From: Candidatus Bathyarchaeota archaeon
GTDB lineage: Archaea > Thermoproteota > Bathyarchaeia > Bathyarchaeales > Bathycorpusculaceae
Reading direction: 5' to 3'
Assembly (NCBI GenBank): GCA_029881805.1
Contig: JAOULW010000015.1
Coordinates: 1-42,999 of the forward strand
Length of the DNA stretch: 42,999 nt
Shown: positions 8,848-16,551 of the stretch, one piece after another
Layout of the letters: every line of letters starts with the position of its first letter
How positions within the stretch are numbered: position 1 is the stretch's first letter
Program-made: the position numbers and the translations under genes
Notes under the pieces: generated by a model
What the model saw: the letters and a program-made list of their open reading frames with translations, nothing else
What the model was told of the DNA's origin: nothing
The model's database searches: none

Positions 8848-9399
8848 ATGGCTAGGGTAGCGCGAGAAATGGTGGAGAAGGCTGGCATCAATGTTGACCA
8901 GCTAGTGGAGCTGCTAGTCAAGAATGCTGCAGCTGAGCTTACAACTTACTACTACTACACTATCCTTCGATGTAATCTGATAGGACTCGAAGGAGAAGGG
9001 ATCAAGGAGATCGCAGAAGCCGCTCGCATTGAAGACCGTAATCATTTTGAGGCTCTTGTTCCTCGCATATACGAGCTCGGAGGCAAATTGCCAGAAGATA
9101 TGAAAGCGTTTCATGATATCTCGGCTTGTCCACCTGCTAAACTGCCAACGGATCCAACTGACACCATGGCAATGCTGAAGGTGTTGGTGGAGGCCGAAAG
9201 ATGTGCAGTGCGAGGATATACACACATCTGTAACATGACCGCTGGCAAGGATCACCGGACATACGACTTATCTCAGGCGATCCTTAACGAGGAAATTGAG
9301 CATGAATCTTGGTTCTCTGAATTCCTAGGCGAGGGACCATCCGGCCACTTCATGCGCAGAGGCGAGACTTCGCCATTTGTCTCCAAGTTCCTCAAGTAA
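8848..9399 (+). CDS. dpsL: DpsL-type ferritin (DNA protection/iron storage)
   Basis: This 183-residue ferritin-fold protein oxidises Fe(II) with peroxide or oxygen and stores iron in a 12-subunit cage. Visible ferroxidase ligands include E30 (NAAAELTTYYYY), E62 and H66 (IEDRNHFEA), E115 (VLVEAERC) and the E149-x-x-H152 motif (NEEIEHESW). C94 (ISACPPAKLP) and C119 (AERCAVRG) are 25 residues apart, the same spacing as the conserved cysteine pair that marks DpsL proteins of Sulfolobus and other archaea and distinguishes them from Dps and bacterioferritin. It is followed by a ZIP metal transporter 62 nt downstream and a cytochrome b5-like gene, an iron and oxidative-stress unit. Start ATG is supported by GAGGTGATA. 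Confidence 0.9.
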   Translation: MARVAREMVEKAGINVDQLVELLVKNAAAELTTYYYYTILRCNLIGLEGEGIKEIAEAARIEDRNHFEALVPRIYELGGKLPEDMKAFHDISACPPAKLPTDPTDTMAMLKVLVEAERCAVRGYTHICNMTAGKDHRTYDLSQAILNEEIEHESWFSEFLGEGPSGHFMRRGETSPFVSKFLK

Positions 9400-9461
9400 G
9401 CCTTCTCCGCTCTCTCCCCCTTTTTAGTCCAACAGATATTGTACAGGTCTGCGAGTTACAA

Positions 9462-10211
9462 ATGATCGAGGAAACAATTCTACTTGGTGCCGTGGCCAGT
9501 CTAGCCGCTGGCTTAGCCACTGGCGCCGGAGCTTTGCCAGTGCTGTTTACAAAGAAAGTTTCAGATAGGTTGTTGGATGTCATGCTTGGGTTTTCGGCTG
9601 GTGTTATGCTGGCAGCTACTTCATTTAGTTTGATCGTGCCAGCTATTGATCTGAGCGGTCCTTGGGTTGCTGTTTTTGGAATTGTTCTAGGAGCTTTTGC
9701 GTTACATTTGATTGACCGCTTTATTCCTCACTTTCATCCAGCGTTAGGTGCAGAAGGACCTTCTTCGAGGTTATCGAAAGTTTGGCTGTTTGTCATCGCC
9801 ATAACTATTCACAACTTTCCTGAAGGGTTGGCCGTTGGAGTCAGCTTCGGCAGCGGCGACGTGGCGGCAGGAACTGTCGTTGCCATGGCTATCGGGCTTC
9901 AGAACATGCCTGAAGGACTTGCAGTCGCGCTGCCCTTGTTAAGGGAAGGATATAGCAGAAGAAGATCTTTATGGTATGGGACTTTGACCGGATTGGTTGA
10001 GCCTGTTGGGGGTTTGTTGGGTGTTGCCTTGGTCTCAATTTTTCATCCGATTCTGCCTTGGGCACTGGCTTTTGCAGCAGGCGCCATGCTTTTCGTCGTG
10101 AGTGATGAGATGATTCCTGAAAGCCACAGGAAAGGTTTTGAGAGAGAAGCGACTTTTGGGTTAATAGTTGGATTTGTGATCATGATGCTGCTAGACTGTT
10201 TATTTGGTTGA
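9462..10211 (+). CDS. ZIP family divalent metal transporter
   Basis: This 249-residue protein has about eight membrane segments, starting at residue 5. The ZIP signature is in TM4, HNFPEGLAVGVSFG (near residues 117-130), and in TM5, QNMPEGLAVALP, with EPVGG in the next segment. The histidines, glutamates and asparagines in these form the metal site. A short histidine-containing loop (IPHFHPALG) precedes TM4. It resembles ZupT-type importers of zinc, iron or manganese; the exact metal cannot be told. It sits 62 nt after the DpsL gene on the same strand, suggesting supply or balance of iron for the ferritin. Confidence 0.85.
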   Translation: MIEETILLGAVASLAAGLATGAGALPVLFTKKVSDRLLDVMLGFSAGVMLAATSFSLIVPAIDLSGPWVAVFGIVLGAFALHLIDRFIPHFHPALGAEGPSSRLSKVWLFVIAITIHNFPEGLAVGVSFGSGDVAAGTVVAMAIGLQNMPEGLAVALPLLREGYSRRRSLWYGTLTGLVEPVGGLLGVALVSIFHPILPWALAFAAGAMLFVVSDEMIPESHRKGFEREATFGLIVGFVIMMLLDCLFG

Positions 10212-10251
10212 AAAGCGTTTTTCTTTTGTCTTACTTGGAATGGTCATACGT

Positions 10252-10512
10252 ATGAAGGAATTCACTGAGAAAGAGCTAGCTCAGTACGATGGGAAAAACG
10301 GAAATCCAGTGTATGTGGCGTACAAGGGAAAGGTATACGACGTTTCAAGTAGTTTTCTTTGGAAAGATGGAACGCACCAGGTTTTTCACAGCGGTGGTGT
10401 GGATTTGACGGATGCCTTAGAACAAGCTCCACATGGCGGAGACGTTCTTGAAAAATTTCCCGTGATTGGGATCTTACGTAACGTAGTTTTCGATACACCA
10501 TCTAAGCCATGA
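10252..10512 (+). CDS. Cytochrome b5-like heme-binding domain protein
   Basis: This 86-residue single-domain protein begins MKEFTEKELAQYDGKNG and contains YVAYKGKVYDVS, the classical b5 strand. The heme ligand loop reads HSGGVDLTDALEQAPHGGD, with H46 in the HxGG position and H61 as likely second ligand. It is soluble and may carry electrons. The start at 10252 is preferred because family members begin with this strand-helix pattern. An in-frame ATG at 10240 would add four residues. It follows the ZIP gene by about 40 nt and probably belongs to the same transcript. Confidence 0.8.
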   Translation: MKEFTEKELAQYDGKNGNPVYVAYKGKVYDVSSSFLWKDGTHQVFHSGGVDLTDALEQAPHGGDVLEKFPVIGILRNVVFDTPSKP

Positions 10513-12518: not shown

Positions 12519-13349
12519 TCACTTTTTTCGGTAGACCCACACTATCAAAGGTATAGCTATGGCTAGATAAGCAAGGTGGACTAGTACTCTTGCCCACTCA
12601 GCGTTGACTGTGTAGCCGAACATGACGGCAAACACGGAACCCACAACACCTTTGTGGTGAAATGCGCTGTCGCTTGGAATGTTTAGGTTGTATGCTGGTT
12701 GACCAAGCCAGCCCCATGATGCAGAACCAGTGTACTCTACAAGTTCGTGTACTCCATAACCAACTAGCCCCCCCGCCAAAAGCACTAGCAATATACTTGT
12801 GAAATAGAAAAACTTGTGCATGTTGATTCTCATACCCACAACGAACATTGCATAGGCTAGAATGATTGATCCAACAACTCCTAGAAAGGCGCCAACAAAG
12901 GTGCTAGCAGCATCATCTACTAAGAAAGGAGTGAGGAAGAGCACGGTTTCGAGTCCTTCACGGAATGTGACGATGAACGAAAAAGATGTTAGAGCAAGAG
13001 TCGCTCCTCGAGTAACAATATCTTTTACCCTTTGCTCCACTTCGTTTCGAAGCTCCCTGCCTTTGCTAGCCATCCAGTAAATCATGGAGGATATTACAAA
13101 AACTGCAAAGAGGGCAGCGACTCCCTCAAACAACGCTTTGGTCGATCCAGTTAAGCTGCCGTAGAGAAGCCAGACGAAGATTCCGATGACCACACTTGCT
13201 CCCATGGCGACGTAAACTCCGTACCATACGTACTTTGAAAGAAGGCTTCTCCCAGTTCGTTTAAGATAGGCCAGGATTATCGCTGTTATAAGAGCAGCTT
13301 CCAACGCTTCTCTGAAAGCTAACAAGAACTGTCCGATCAACTGGTTCAC
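12519..13349 (-). CDS. FTR1 family high-affinity iron permease
   Basis: This 276-residue protein has about seven membrane segments. It carries the two REXXE motifs of FTR1, REALE (13-17) and REGLE (130-134), which bind and pass iron. It lacks the periplasmic domain of EfeU-type fusions. A GTG at 13349 is the chosen start because family members begin a few residues before the first REXXE helix. A longer frame to 13502 runs through the coding region of the upstream regulator and is unlikely. The gene follows the PadR-TRASH regulator by about 35 nt and shares its strand, so it is probably in the same transcript. Cysteine or histidine exporters are alternatives that the REXXE pair argues against. 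Confidence 0.85.
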   Translation of the reverse strand: MNQLIGQFLLAFREALEAALITAIILAYLKRTGRSLLSKYVWYGVYVAMGASVVIGIFVWLLYGSLTGSTKALFEGVAALFAVFVISSMIYWMASKGRELRNEVEQRVKDIVTRGATLALTSFSFIVTFREGLETVLFLTPFLVDDAASTFVGAFLGVVGSIILAYAMFVVGMRINMHKFFYFTSILLVLLAGGLVGYGVHELVEYTGSASWGWLGQPAYNLNIPSDSAFHHKGVVGSVFAVMFGYTVNAEWARVLVHLAYLAIAIPLIVWVYRKK

Positions 13350-13384: not shown

Positions 13385-13822
13385 CTAGGATAGTTCTTCT
13401 TTGTAAGAGTGTGCGCAGTGCACACAGCAGAAGGTCGCTTCCTTTCCATCGATAACTTCGCGATGTCCCCCTTCGTAGACTTTGCATCCACAGTTTGCAC
13501 AAGTCTCAAGACTCGCTTCAATAGCCACTGAGACTAATTTGTCAAATCTCTTAAACAGTCTTGTACAAAGCAGTGTTCCCTCTTCGGTTAATTCAAAGAT
13601 TTTTCTGTTTTTTTCGCCTATGGGTTTATCAGTGTGCATTACCAAGCCCTTCTCCTCAAGTTTTTTTAGAAACGGATAGACAAGGCTTGCGCTAACTTCC
13701 TTTCCTAGGCGCTTTCTGAATCTACTAAGGATGCTATAACCGTGATTTGGACCCTCGTACAAGATGGTTAGTATATAGAAACGCGAAAAGTCTACGATTA
13801 AGTCGTCAAATTCTGACTTCAT
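13385..13822 (-). CDS. PadR-type regulator with C-terminal TRASH metal-sensing domain
   Basis: Residues 1-90 form a PadR/winged-helix domain (ILTILYEGPNHGYSILSRF, SASLVYPFLKKLEEKGLV). A short linker leads to a TRASH-type metal-binding domain with C111-x20-C132-x3-C136 plus extra C108, C113 and C133 (CANCGCKVYEGG and FCCVHCAHSY). TRASH domains bind copper or other soft metals in archaeal regulators and copper proteins. The gene is divergent from the CopA ATPase and upstream of FTR1. It therefore probably senses copper (or iron) and controls both sides through the palindromic 92-nt region between them. The exact metal is an inference. Confidence 0.85.
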   Translation of the reverse strand: MKSEFDDLIVDFSRFYILTILYEGPNHGYSILSRFRKRLGKEVSASLVYPFLKKLEEKGLVMHTDKPIGEKNRKIFELTEEGTLLCTRLFKRFDKLVSVAIEASLETCANCGCKVYEGGHREVIDGKEATFCCVHCAHSYKEELS

Positions 13823-13914
13823 TTTTTATCACTTTTATTGATATATCTTCTAAAGAAATATTTATATATTTCTAGTTTATATATCTTTTGCGGATACATC
13901 TTGGTGAACTACCG
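13823..13914. promoter_or_regulatory. Divergent promoter/operator between regulator and CopA genes
   Basis: The region is AT-rich and contains the inverted repeat AGAAATAT-TTAT-ATATTTCT at 13854-13873, flanked by GATATATC (13840-13847) and TTATATATC (13877-13885). The symmetric centre could be the operator for the PadR-TRASH protein, and the flanking sites can act as TATA boxes for the two directions. GGTGA at 13904-13908 is the ribosome binding site that supports the CopA start at 13915. Confidence 0.55.
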
Positions 13915-16407
13915 ATGACCAACAAGAAAAAGATAATACCTATCAGAGGAATGCATTGTGCCTCGTGTGCCCAGACCATAGAAAAGGCTCTCAAAGAAAC
14001 TCCTGGGATCACGGAGGCTAATGTCAACTTGGCATCCGAAAAAGCTTACGTAACTTACGATTCAAGCATAACTGGCGAAAACGAAGTTATAGCGGCAATC
14101 AACGCCACTGGCTACGAGGCTCGCTTGGAGACTAAAAAGACCATTCTCAAAATCGGAGGGATGACATGCGCGTCTTGCGCCCAAACGATAGAAAAGGTCC
14201 TTAGGAAGATCGAAGGCGTCGTTGAAGCAAACGTGAACCTTGCATCTGAAAAAGCTGTGGTCGTGTACGATCCTCAAACAATAGATTACGAAACCATAAG
14301 AAAGGCCATAGAAGCGACGGGTTATCAAGTGCTTGGCAGAGAGGAAGGTTCTGCCAAATATGAGCAAGCAATAGAGGAAGAGCAAAGAAAATTCAATGAA
14401 GCAAAGATGAGGATGAAGATTTCATGGGCCGTCACCATACCAATAATTGCGTGGATGATACCTGAAATGATCTTCGGAATAGCGTGGCCAAACATGACTT
14501 TGTATACAATCGGAACCATTCTATTAGCCATTCCAGCACTGTTTTGGGCAGGCAAAGAGACTCTTCTGTCTGCAGGAAAGAAAGTAGCCCACGGCAGAGC
14601 CAACATGGATGTGTTAATAGCTTTAGGTACATTAACCGCCTTTATCACTGGACCTGCCACGTTTTTCAGCCCCATTCTAAATTACGCAGGGGTTTCGGCG
14701 ATGATCATGTCATTTCACCTTCTAGGAAGATATATCGAGGCGAAGGCAAAGGGCAGGGCATCTCAAGCCATAAGAAAGTTGCTGGAATTGGAGGCTAAGA
14801 CCGCTCGAATCTTGGTGGATGGCAAGGAAAAGGAGGTACCTGTTGACGAAGTCACTGTGGAGAACATTATGATTATCCGACCAGGGGAAAAAATCCCCAC
14901 TGACGGTGTCGTGATTGAGGGCCAAAGCTCAGTTGATGAGTCGATGGCAACGGGCGAGTCTATGCCTGTGCCGAAAAACGTTGGGGACAAGGTAATAGGA
15001 GCCACAGTAAACCAGCGAGGAATGTTGAAGGTAAGAGCCACTAAAGTGGGACAAGACACCTTTCTGTCCCAAGTCATTAGGCTAGTTGAGGAAGCTCAAG
15101 GGTCGAAGGTTCCCATCCAAGAATTTGCTGACAGAGTAGTTAGCTATTTTGTCCCGGCAGTATTAACCCTATCATTTTCGGCTCTGGTTCTATGGCTTAT
15201 CTTTCCTGACCAAGTCAGCGTGGTCACAGCTTGGGCTCAACAATTCTTGCCTTGGGTCAATCTTAACCTTGGCGTCGTCACTCTTGCCATATCTGCGTTC
15301 ATTTCAAGTCTTGTGATTGCTTGCCCTTGCGCCCTTGGACTGGCAACTCCTACCGCTCTAATGGTTGGAACAGGTATGGGAGCTGAAAAAGGTGTGCTGA
15401 TTCGCCATGGTGCGGCATTACAGACTCTTAAGGAGGTTGACACGATTGTCTTTGACAAAACGGGGACCATCACAAAGGGTAAACCAGAAGTTACTGATGT
15501 AGTTCCTGTAGAAGGCTATTCGGAAGAAGAGGTTCTACGATTAGCCGCAAGTGTTGAGGTTGGATCAGAGCATCCCCTTGGAGAAGCAATTCTGAGAAGA
15601 GCTAAAGATGGAAATCTAGAGCTTTACAGTGGAGAAGCTTTCGAGGCTATAACGGGGAGAGGAGTGAAAGCGAAAATCAGTCTTTCTTCCCCAAAACTAG
15701 TTCTGGTTGGAAACAGAAAGCTGATGAAAGAACAAAAAGTGGATTATAAGCCCTTAGAAAATGTTTTGGAACGTTTCGAGCGGGAAGCCAAGACGGCCAT
15801 GCTTCTTGCCGCAGAGGGAAAAATCGCGGGAGTGGTTGCTGTTGCAGACACACTTAAAGATGATTCAGTGCAAGCTATAAGAGAACTCGAAGAGATGGGA
15901 ATCAAAACGACTATGCTCACGGGAGACAATGAACTCACTGCAAAGGCCATCGCCCAAAAAGTCGGGATATCCAGGGTTTTGGCTGAAGTCCTCCCAGACC
16001 AAAAGGTGAAGGAAATTCAGAGACTACAGGAAAATGGGGAAACAGTTGCTATGGTCGGCGATGGCATAAATGACGCGCCGGCTTTGACAGCAGCAAATGT
16101 TGGAGTTGCCATAGGAACTGGGACAGACATTGCCATTGAATCTGCTGACGTAACATTAGTTAGGGGAAAATTGTCTGGTGTAGTCACCGCTGTAAAGCTC
16201 TCACGAGCTACGTTTAGAAAAATCAAGCAAAACCTTTTCTGGGCCTTCTTTTACAATGCCGCTGCCATACCATTGGCCATGTTAGGCTTGGCTCACCCAG
16301 CTTTGGCGGAAATTGCGATGGCAACAAGTTCAGTCAGTGTAGTAACAAACGCAAATCTGCTTAGAAGGGCTAAAATTCTCCTTTCATCCCAAAACACGCG
16401 GAGGTGA
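13915..16407 (+). CDS. copA: CopA-type Cu(I)-transporting P1B ATPase
   Basis: This 830-residue copper-exporting P-type ATPase has two N-terminal heavy-metal domains, with GMHCASC at about residues 12-18 and GMTCASC at about 82-88. Eight membrane segments include the ion-binding CPC near 469-471 ([13 protein letters not shown]). The phosphorylation motif DKTGT starts near D514. Also present are a P1B HP motif (SEHPLGEAI), TGD (MLTGDNE) and GDGINDAP near 715. Motif set and CPC type indicate Cu(I) or Ag(I). The start at 13915 is favoured by GGTGA 6 nt upstream; a TTG nine codons earlier is possible. The YHS gene starts 6 nt after its stop, and the regulator is divergent, completing a copper-resistance set. 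Confidence 0.95.
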
Positions 16408-16413
16408 GAGTTC

Positions 16414-16551
16414 ATGGTGAAAGATCCGGTTTGCGAAATGGAAGTGGATGAGAAAACAGCGAAACACAAGGCAGAACATATGGGAAAAACCTACTATTTC
16501 TGTGAACTTGGTTGCAAAAAGAATTCGAAAAGAACCCCCACAAATAAATGA
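16414..16551 (+). CDS. YHS-domain protein, 3' end probably frameshifted
   Basis: The 45-residue frame starts MVKDPVCEMEVDEKTAKHKA, with GKTYYFCELGCKK further on. This is the YHS domain, a small metal-binding module (C7 and C30/C34) found with copper ATPases. The ribosome binding site GGAGGTGA overlaps the CopA stop codon (16400-16407). After CKK the frame reads NSKRTPTNK, whereas one more A in the run at 16514-16519 would give KEFEKNPHK, the typical YHS ending, so a one-base deletion is likely. It probably still folds, since the cysteines precede the shift. It is expected to serve as a copper chaperone or sensor; that role is inferred. Confidence 0.7.
   Translation: MVKDPVCEMEVDEKTAKHKAEHMGKTYYFCELGCKKNSKRTPTNK

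Follow-up and report, generated by a model that had tools for sequence, protein, structure and literature searches.

A conserved site, rather than the palindrome first noted there, marks the probable control region between the divergent genes for a PadR-TRASH regulator and the copper ATPase CopA in an uncultured archaeon. Judged from sequence, there is a probability of roughly 0.7 that this region is a divergent promoter in which a common TATA element adjoins an operator at 13841-13861, that the PadR-TRASH protein binds this operator and that Cu(I) on its TRASH cysteines derepresses copA and the following YHS gene. The best reading of the protein itself would be that of a copper-responsive regulator, probably a repressor, of copA (in cis or in trans) and of its own gene. 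Comparison of related sequences shows that the site is conserved, that it has a defined position with respect to TATA-like sequences, that it accompanies copper-type ATPase genes both in cis and in trans and co-occurs with the regulator, and that the predicted metal-binding cysteines are conserved.

Genes of the copper cluster

The window, i.e. the whole stretch of 42,999 nucleotides analyzed, stems from a 2.2-Mb genome. The intergenic gap separating the divergent regulator and CopA genes covers 92 bp (13823-13914) with an A+T content of 76%. The flanking genes are those that the sequence-only reading had named (Pfam):

12519-13349, minus strand: FTR1-type permease (PF03239, 2e-59), GTG start assumed
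13385-13822, minus strand: PadR-TRASH regulator, 145 aa (Pfam), ATG at 13822
13915-16407, plus strand: CopA, Cu-type P1B ATPase, 830 aa, two HMA domains (Pfam, TIGR01511), ATG at 13915
16414-16551, plus strand: small YHS-domain protein, possible copper chaperone (PF04945, 5.1e-10)

CopA scores 568 bits with TIGR01511 (cutoff 397), and its translation contains the CPC, YN and MxxSS transmembrane residues, which we take to be the mark of P1B-1 Cu(+) ATPases. The regulator and the downstream FTR1 gene are probably carried on one transcript. The proposed grouping of CopA, YHS and FTR1 with the regulator recurs in relatives: the YHS gene is again found next to copA, and FTR1 is located after the regulator in some relatives and after copA-YHS in distant ones, its association being patchy overall. 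About two dozen loci carry the regulator without an adjoining copA. Genes for ferritin-like, ZIP transporter and cytochrome b5-like proteins (Pfam) lie near the copper cluster, at 8848-10512 of the window.

The regulator and its family

The regulator consists of a PadR domain (residues 17-83; PF03551, 5.5e-16), whose 58.8 bits exceed the curated Pfam cutoff of 27, and a C-terminal TRASH-type domain (residues 107-143; PF24273, 1.8e-5), whose 25.3 bits fall just below the curated cutoff of 27. Its DNA-binding domain is PadR, not Lrp/AsnC-type. An AlphaFold2 model (pLDDT 87) comprises a winged helix, a long helix (residues 80-101) and a small Cys-rich C-terminal unit. PadR structures are the top Foldseek matches to this model in the PDB, over about 100 alignment columns, a span close to that of the PadR part, so that these alignments apparently leave the C-terminal Cys domain uncovered. 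The modeled fold is that of a PadR winged helix with a predicted C-terminal dimerisation helix. TRASH cysteines C108, C111, C132, C133 and C136 are kept in all 85 aligned regulators and C113 in 82 of them, the alignment having been made without L119 and L120, two broken copies with in-frame stops.

A search of 300 related genomes yielded 86 loci that were examined; the full set comprises 87 regulator loci, including the window and a paralogue from its own genome. This second PadR-TRASH gene (G000:C24:129567-129989; L002, L035) is 67% identical to the first and diverges from a YHS gene. The fusion of PadR and TRASH domains had been called uncommon, a statement that needs qualifying, as a full-length-type orthologue (E < 1e-40) is present in 39 of 90 genomes from the same family. 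No paper joining the two domains was found in a search of the open-licence literature. One report describes an H. salinarum PadR protein that is increased with Cu/Ni and whose deletion had no clear effect (PMC6978704).

Most named relatives bear the label Candidatus Bathyarchaeota; the family also reaches Asgard, Hadarchaeal and other lineages, with record labels of Thorarchaeota, Borrarchaeum, Freyarchaeota, Heimdallarchaeota, Prometheoarchaeum, Brockarchaeota, Hadesarchaea/Hadarchaeum, Nitrososphaerales and Diapherotrites. Two further close relatives, L192 and L226, are found in records labelled Firmicutes and Latescibacterota, probably on misbinned contigs.

A conserved operator candidate in regulator promoters

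The sequence-only reading had proposed as operator a palindrome, AGAAATAT-TTAT-ATATTTCT, between the divergent genes. It is indeed present, and occurs only once in the window. Because 46 of 2000 dinucleotide shuffles of the A+T-rich gap (13823-13914) also produced arms of at least 8 nt (spacer 0-8), the palindrome is only modestly unlikely and, taken alone, weak evidence. Footprinting across 84 orthologous regulator promoters (counted without L118, L119 and L120, whose frames are divergent or broken) points to another conserved element, AGATATATCT, usually arranged as ATATATCT-N5-AGATATAT. The elements compare as follows in the gap:

13841-13861, no strand assigned: operator candidate ATATATCT-TCTAA-AGAAATAT, imperfect inverted repeat with 7 of 8 pairs (footprint)
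13839-13864, no strand assigned: match to the longer module described below, one mismatch (pattern search)
13854-13873, no strand assigned: 20-bp palindrome with two perfect 8-nt arms

With at most one mismatch, AGATATATCT is found in 70 of the 84 regulator promoters, compared with 1.55 of 84 in shuffled sequences and 4 of 394 upstream regions of other ORFs at the same loci. The arrangement ATATATCT-N5-AGATATATCT, allowing three mismatches, is present in 65 of 84 (shuffles 0.1), whereas the palindromic 20-mer reaches only 20 of 84 at the same tolerance. The operator register is thereby corrected to 13841-13861, partly overlapping the palindrome.

The regulator-sense sequence of the window, AGAAATAT-ATAA-ATATTTCT-TTAGA-AGATATATCA, illustrates the difference: the earlier proposal paired blocks one and three, while the pairing kept in relatives is that of block three with the last block. 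That the palindrome itself is the operator is favored by its exact symmetry in the window and, in four relatives (L037, L041, L047, L066), by near-symmetry (7 of 8). However, the left arm, i.e. the first block in regulator sense, keeps RGAAATAT while the right arm changes to ATATATCT or ATGTATCT (L050, L057, L061, L089), showing no co-variation of the arms, and the first block would fit a BRE rather than an operator arm. Moreover, of 41 anchored regulator promoters 5 have arms that match at 7 or more of 8 positions, and the second arm is missing from the trans copA promoters (0 of 20 CopA promoters), in sets that were picked by the ATATATCT-N5-AGATATATCT consensus and are biased against the palindrome, with the divergent-copA label set by hand. 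Given the footprint over 84 promoters, a count free of this bias, and the lack of arm symmetry, the palindrome was rejected as operator, a role we consider very unlikely. From its sequence it looks like one operator arm combined with a BRE/TATA-like element of both promoters, the left arm reading as the right operator half-site and the right arm as a BRE-like part of the regulator promoter. The palindrome is thus largely absent from relatives that have these genes, but a candidate switch at this place is not; what stands of the original proposal is a conserved site linking regulator and CopA within the gap, and what falls is the palindrome as its operator. The opposite extreme, that the A+T-rich conserved motif belongs to the core promoter (TATA/BRE) alone and has no operator role, would suit a motif region that is 76% A+T and overlaps TATA-like sequence. 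Its near absence from the 394 other upstream regions argues against a general promoter element and led us to discard this reading; the motif also tracks the regulator and copper-type ATPases and is absent at other P-type ATPases (see below), making a purely generic origin exceedingly improbable.

Within the window's own genome, the regulator-sense pattern AWATWTCTNNNNNAGATATATC has a match without mismatches only at 13840-13861, and the only one-mismatch match of the site pattern is the promoter of the paralogue. Inspection by eye of 21 loci from labelled groups outside the Bathyarchaeota revealed AGATATATCT, exact or with one mismatch, in several (e.g., both Borrarchaeum loci, Brockarchaeota, Nitrososphaerales and Prometheoarchaeum); it was missing or weak in others of these loci (e.g., Thorarchaeota A361, Diapherotrites and Latescibacterota). 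A distant subfamily (L105-L117; 46-53% identity), in which the regulator is the first gene of an operon with CopA, followed in several cases by YHS and FTR1, has a variant upstream site close to AAATATAT-N9-ATATATTT, possibly reflecting co-evolution of regulator and operator.

Predicted promoter layout

The following promoter elements were assigned in the gap:

13859-13868, no strand assigned: probable TATA element common to both divergent promoters (sequence, spacing)
13861-13868, plus strand: TTTATATA, candidate TATA for copA (sequence)
13859-13866, minus strand: TATAAATA, candidate TATA for the regulator (sequence)
13903-13907, plus strand: SD-like GGTGA of copA (sequence)
13832-13828, minus strand: SD-like GTGAT of the regulator (sequence)

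Given the TATA element and the SD-like GGTGA shortly before the copA ATG, transcription would be expected to start near 13890 for copA and near 13836 for the regulator. The gap also contains a 46-bp inverted repeat (13840-13885). Its outer arms were considered as two separate TATA boxes, a possibility weakened by the positions of the SD-like elements; since GGTGA and GTGAT imply short leaders, the single TATA element fits both genes.

The site at distant copA genes

P-type ATPases from 20 regulator-bearing genomes (30 places examined) were screened with the module pattern AGATATATCT-N5-AGANAYRYTTA, allowing two mismatches. The module is present at 19 of 23 copper-type ATPases and at none of the seven other P-type ATPases in these genomes. 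For 16 of the 19, the ATPase gene and the regulator are on different contigs or at least about 90 kb apart, and at these distant copA genes the module still immediately precedes the copA TATA box. The four copper-type ATPases without it are L134, L151, L132 and L136; copA follows the regulator in one operon in L134 and L151, with a site-like element upstream of the regulator, and L132, where the site is absent, adjoins a regulator fragment. One such fragment (G123:C1:1722927-1723058) adjoins a second copA without the site. Among 28 genomes lacking the regulator (30 of 36 places examined), the module occurs at 2 of 7 copper-type and 0 of 23 other ATPases; two regulator-less genomes with the site at copA are G086 (95% complete) and G009 (75%).

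Across the 90 genomes of the same family, a site with at most one mismatch occurs in 30 of the 39 that carry the regulator and in 2 of the 51 that lack it. The corresponding Fisher value (1e-13) should not be read at face value, as the genomes are related and some sites lie in the regulator's own promoter. Six regulator-bearing genomes among the 90 had no module match. The pattern occurs at 62 places over the 90 genomes versus 5 for a reversed control pattern. Seven of 30 matches examined among these 62 places adjoin neither copA nor the regulator; all of them except L182 have two mismatches, and they look like background. A two-mismatch match, AGATAAATCTTRTGTAGTAATAYTTA, is kept between other genes in four genomes (L184, L185, L186, L188).

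Proposed mechanism and alternatives

The PadR winged helix would bind ATATATCT-N5-AGAAATAT at 13841-13861 as a dimer. At the regulator gene, this operator would be flanked by the TATA box on one side and the expected start on the other, such that the bound protein would block transcription (autoregulation). For copA, the operator would abut and overlap the BRE, and the bound protein would most likely keep TFB/TBP off. Cu(I) on the C-terminal TRASH cysteines would then cause a change in shape that turns on copA-YHS and also affects regulator-FTR1. We infer that the regulator binds the site, that copper is the signal and that relief of repression, instead of activation, turns on copA.

The main rival concerns this last point: the copper-bound regulator could activate copA from just upstream of the BRE/TATA and repress only its own gene, as proposed for Pyrococcus furiosus CopR. 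CopR is described as a dual regulator with a motif directly upstream of the BRE and a C-enriched TATA box at its targets (PMC7830388), and a C is likewise present in the TATA-like stretch of several trans copA promoters here (AGAAATACTTATA). However, the inner half-site overlaps the edge of the BRE/TATA instead of lying clear of it, TTTATA is kept in many copA promoters, and Thermococcus onnurineus CopR is reported to be a repressor (PMC7830388). We regard activation as possible but rather doubtful. Less probable still is a sensor for another thiophilic metal, or for redox or iron, with FTR1 as a main target. FTR1 adjoins the regulator here and in some relatives, and TRASH/YHS cysteines are not metal-specific by sequence, but the trans sites are found at ATPases with the copper-type CPC/YN/MxxSS residues and the linkage to FTR1 is inconsistent, making this unlikely. 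Derepression of copA by copper is the preferred reading.

Relation to known copper regulators

CopR is PF0739 of P. furiosus, with homologues in T. onnurineus and Saccharolobus solfataricus (PMC7830388). As described there, CopR resembles the present regulator in being divergent from copA with a common promoter, in having a semi-palindromic site directly upstream of the target BRE, and in two features predicted for the present protein, namely the joining of an HTH protein to a TRASH domain and autoregulation (PMC7830388). Unlike the Lrp-like, octameric CopR with its site TTNNCAWWWTGNNAA, the present protein has a PadR winged helix, the site ATATATCT-N5-AGATATAT and a predicted metal response. 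As in TRASH-type regulators, the regulator and copA have a candidate operator/promoter in common, which is conserved both between the divergent genes and upstream of copA. By analogy, the regulator may work like CopR/CopT-type TRASH regulators, while its PadR DNA-binding domain places it outside them. It shares the PF03551 domain and fold with LmrR, B. subtilis PadR and Rv3488 of the PadR family, but differs in having a probable TRASH domain as effector part. Like the archaeal cop cluster (regulator, CopA/CopB, chaperone), the locus unites a regulator, CopA and a small YHS/TRASH-like protein; in contrast, the regulator fold differs, FTR1 is added, and regulator and copA are apart in about two dozen relatives.

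We see an even chance that PadR-TRASH proteins constitute a widespread copper sensor of Bathyarchaeia, with kin in Asgard archaea, Hadarchaea and others, that does the job of CopR with an unrelated DNA-binding fold, that operator and single TATA form a compact two-way switch, blocking the regulator gene downstream of the TATA and copA upstream of it, and that the module persisted as copA and regulator became separated. For large archaeal groups that are uncultured and whose regulators have received little study, the analysis provides a candidate operator and a candidate regulon of metal homeostasis. It also suggests that, in archaeal copper sensing, the TRASH sensor has been combined with no fewer than two distinct DNA-binding folds.
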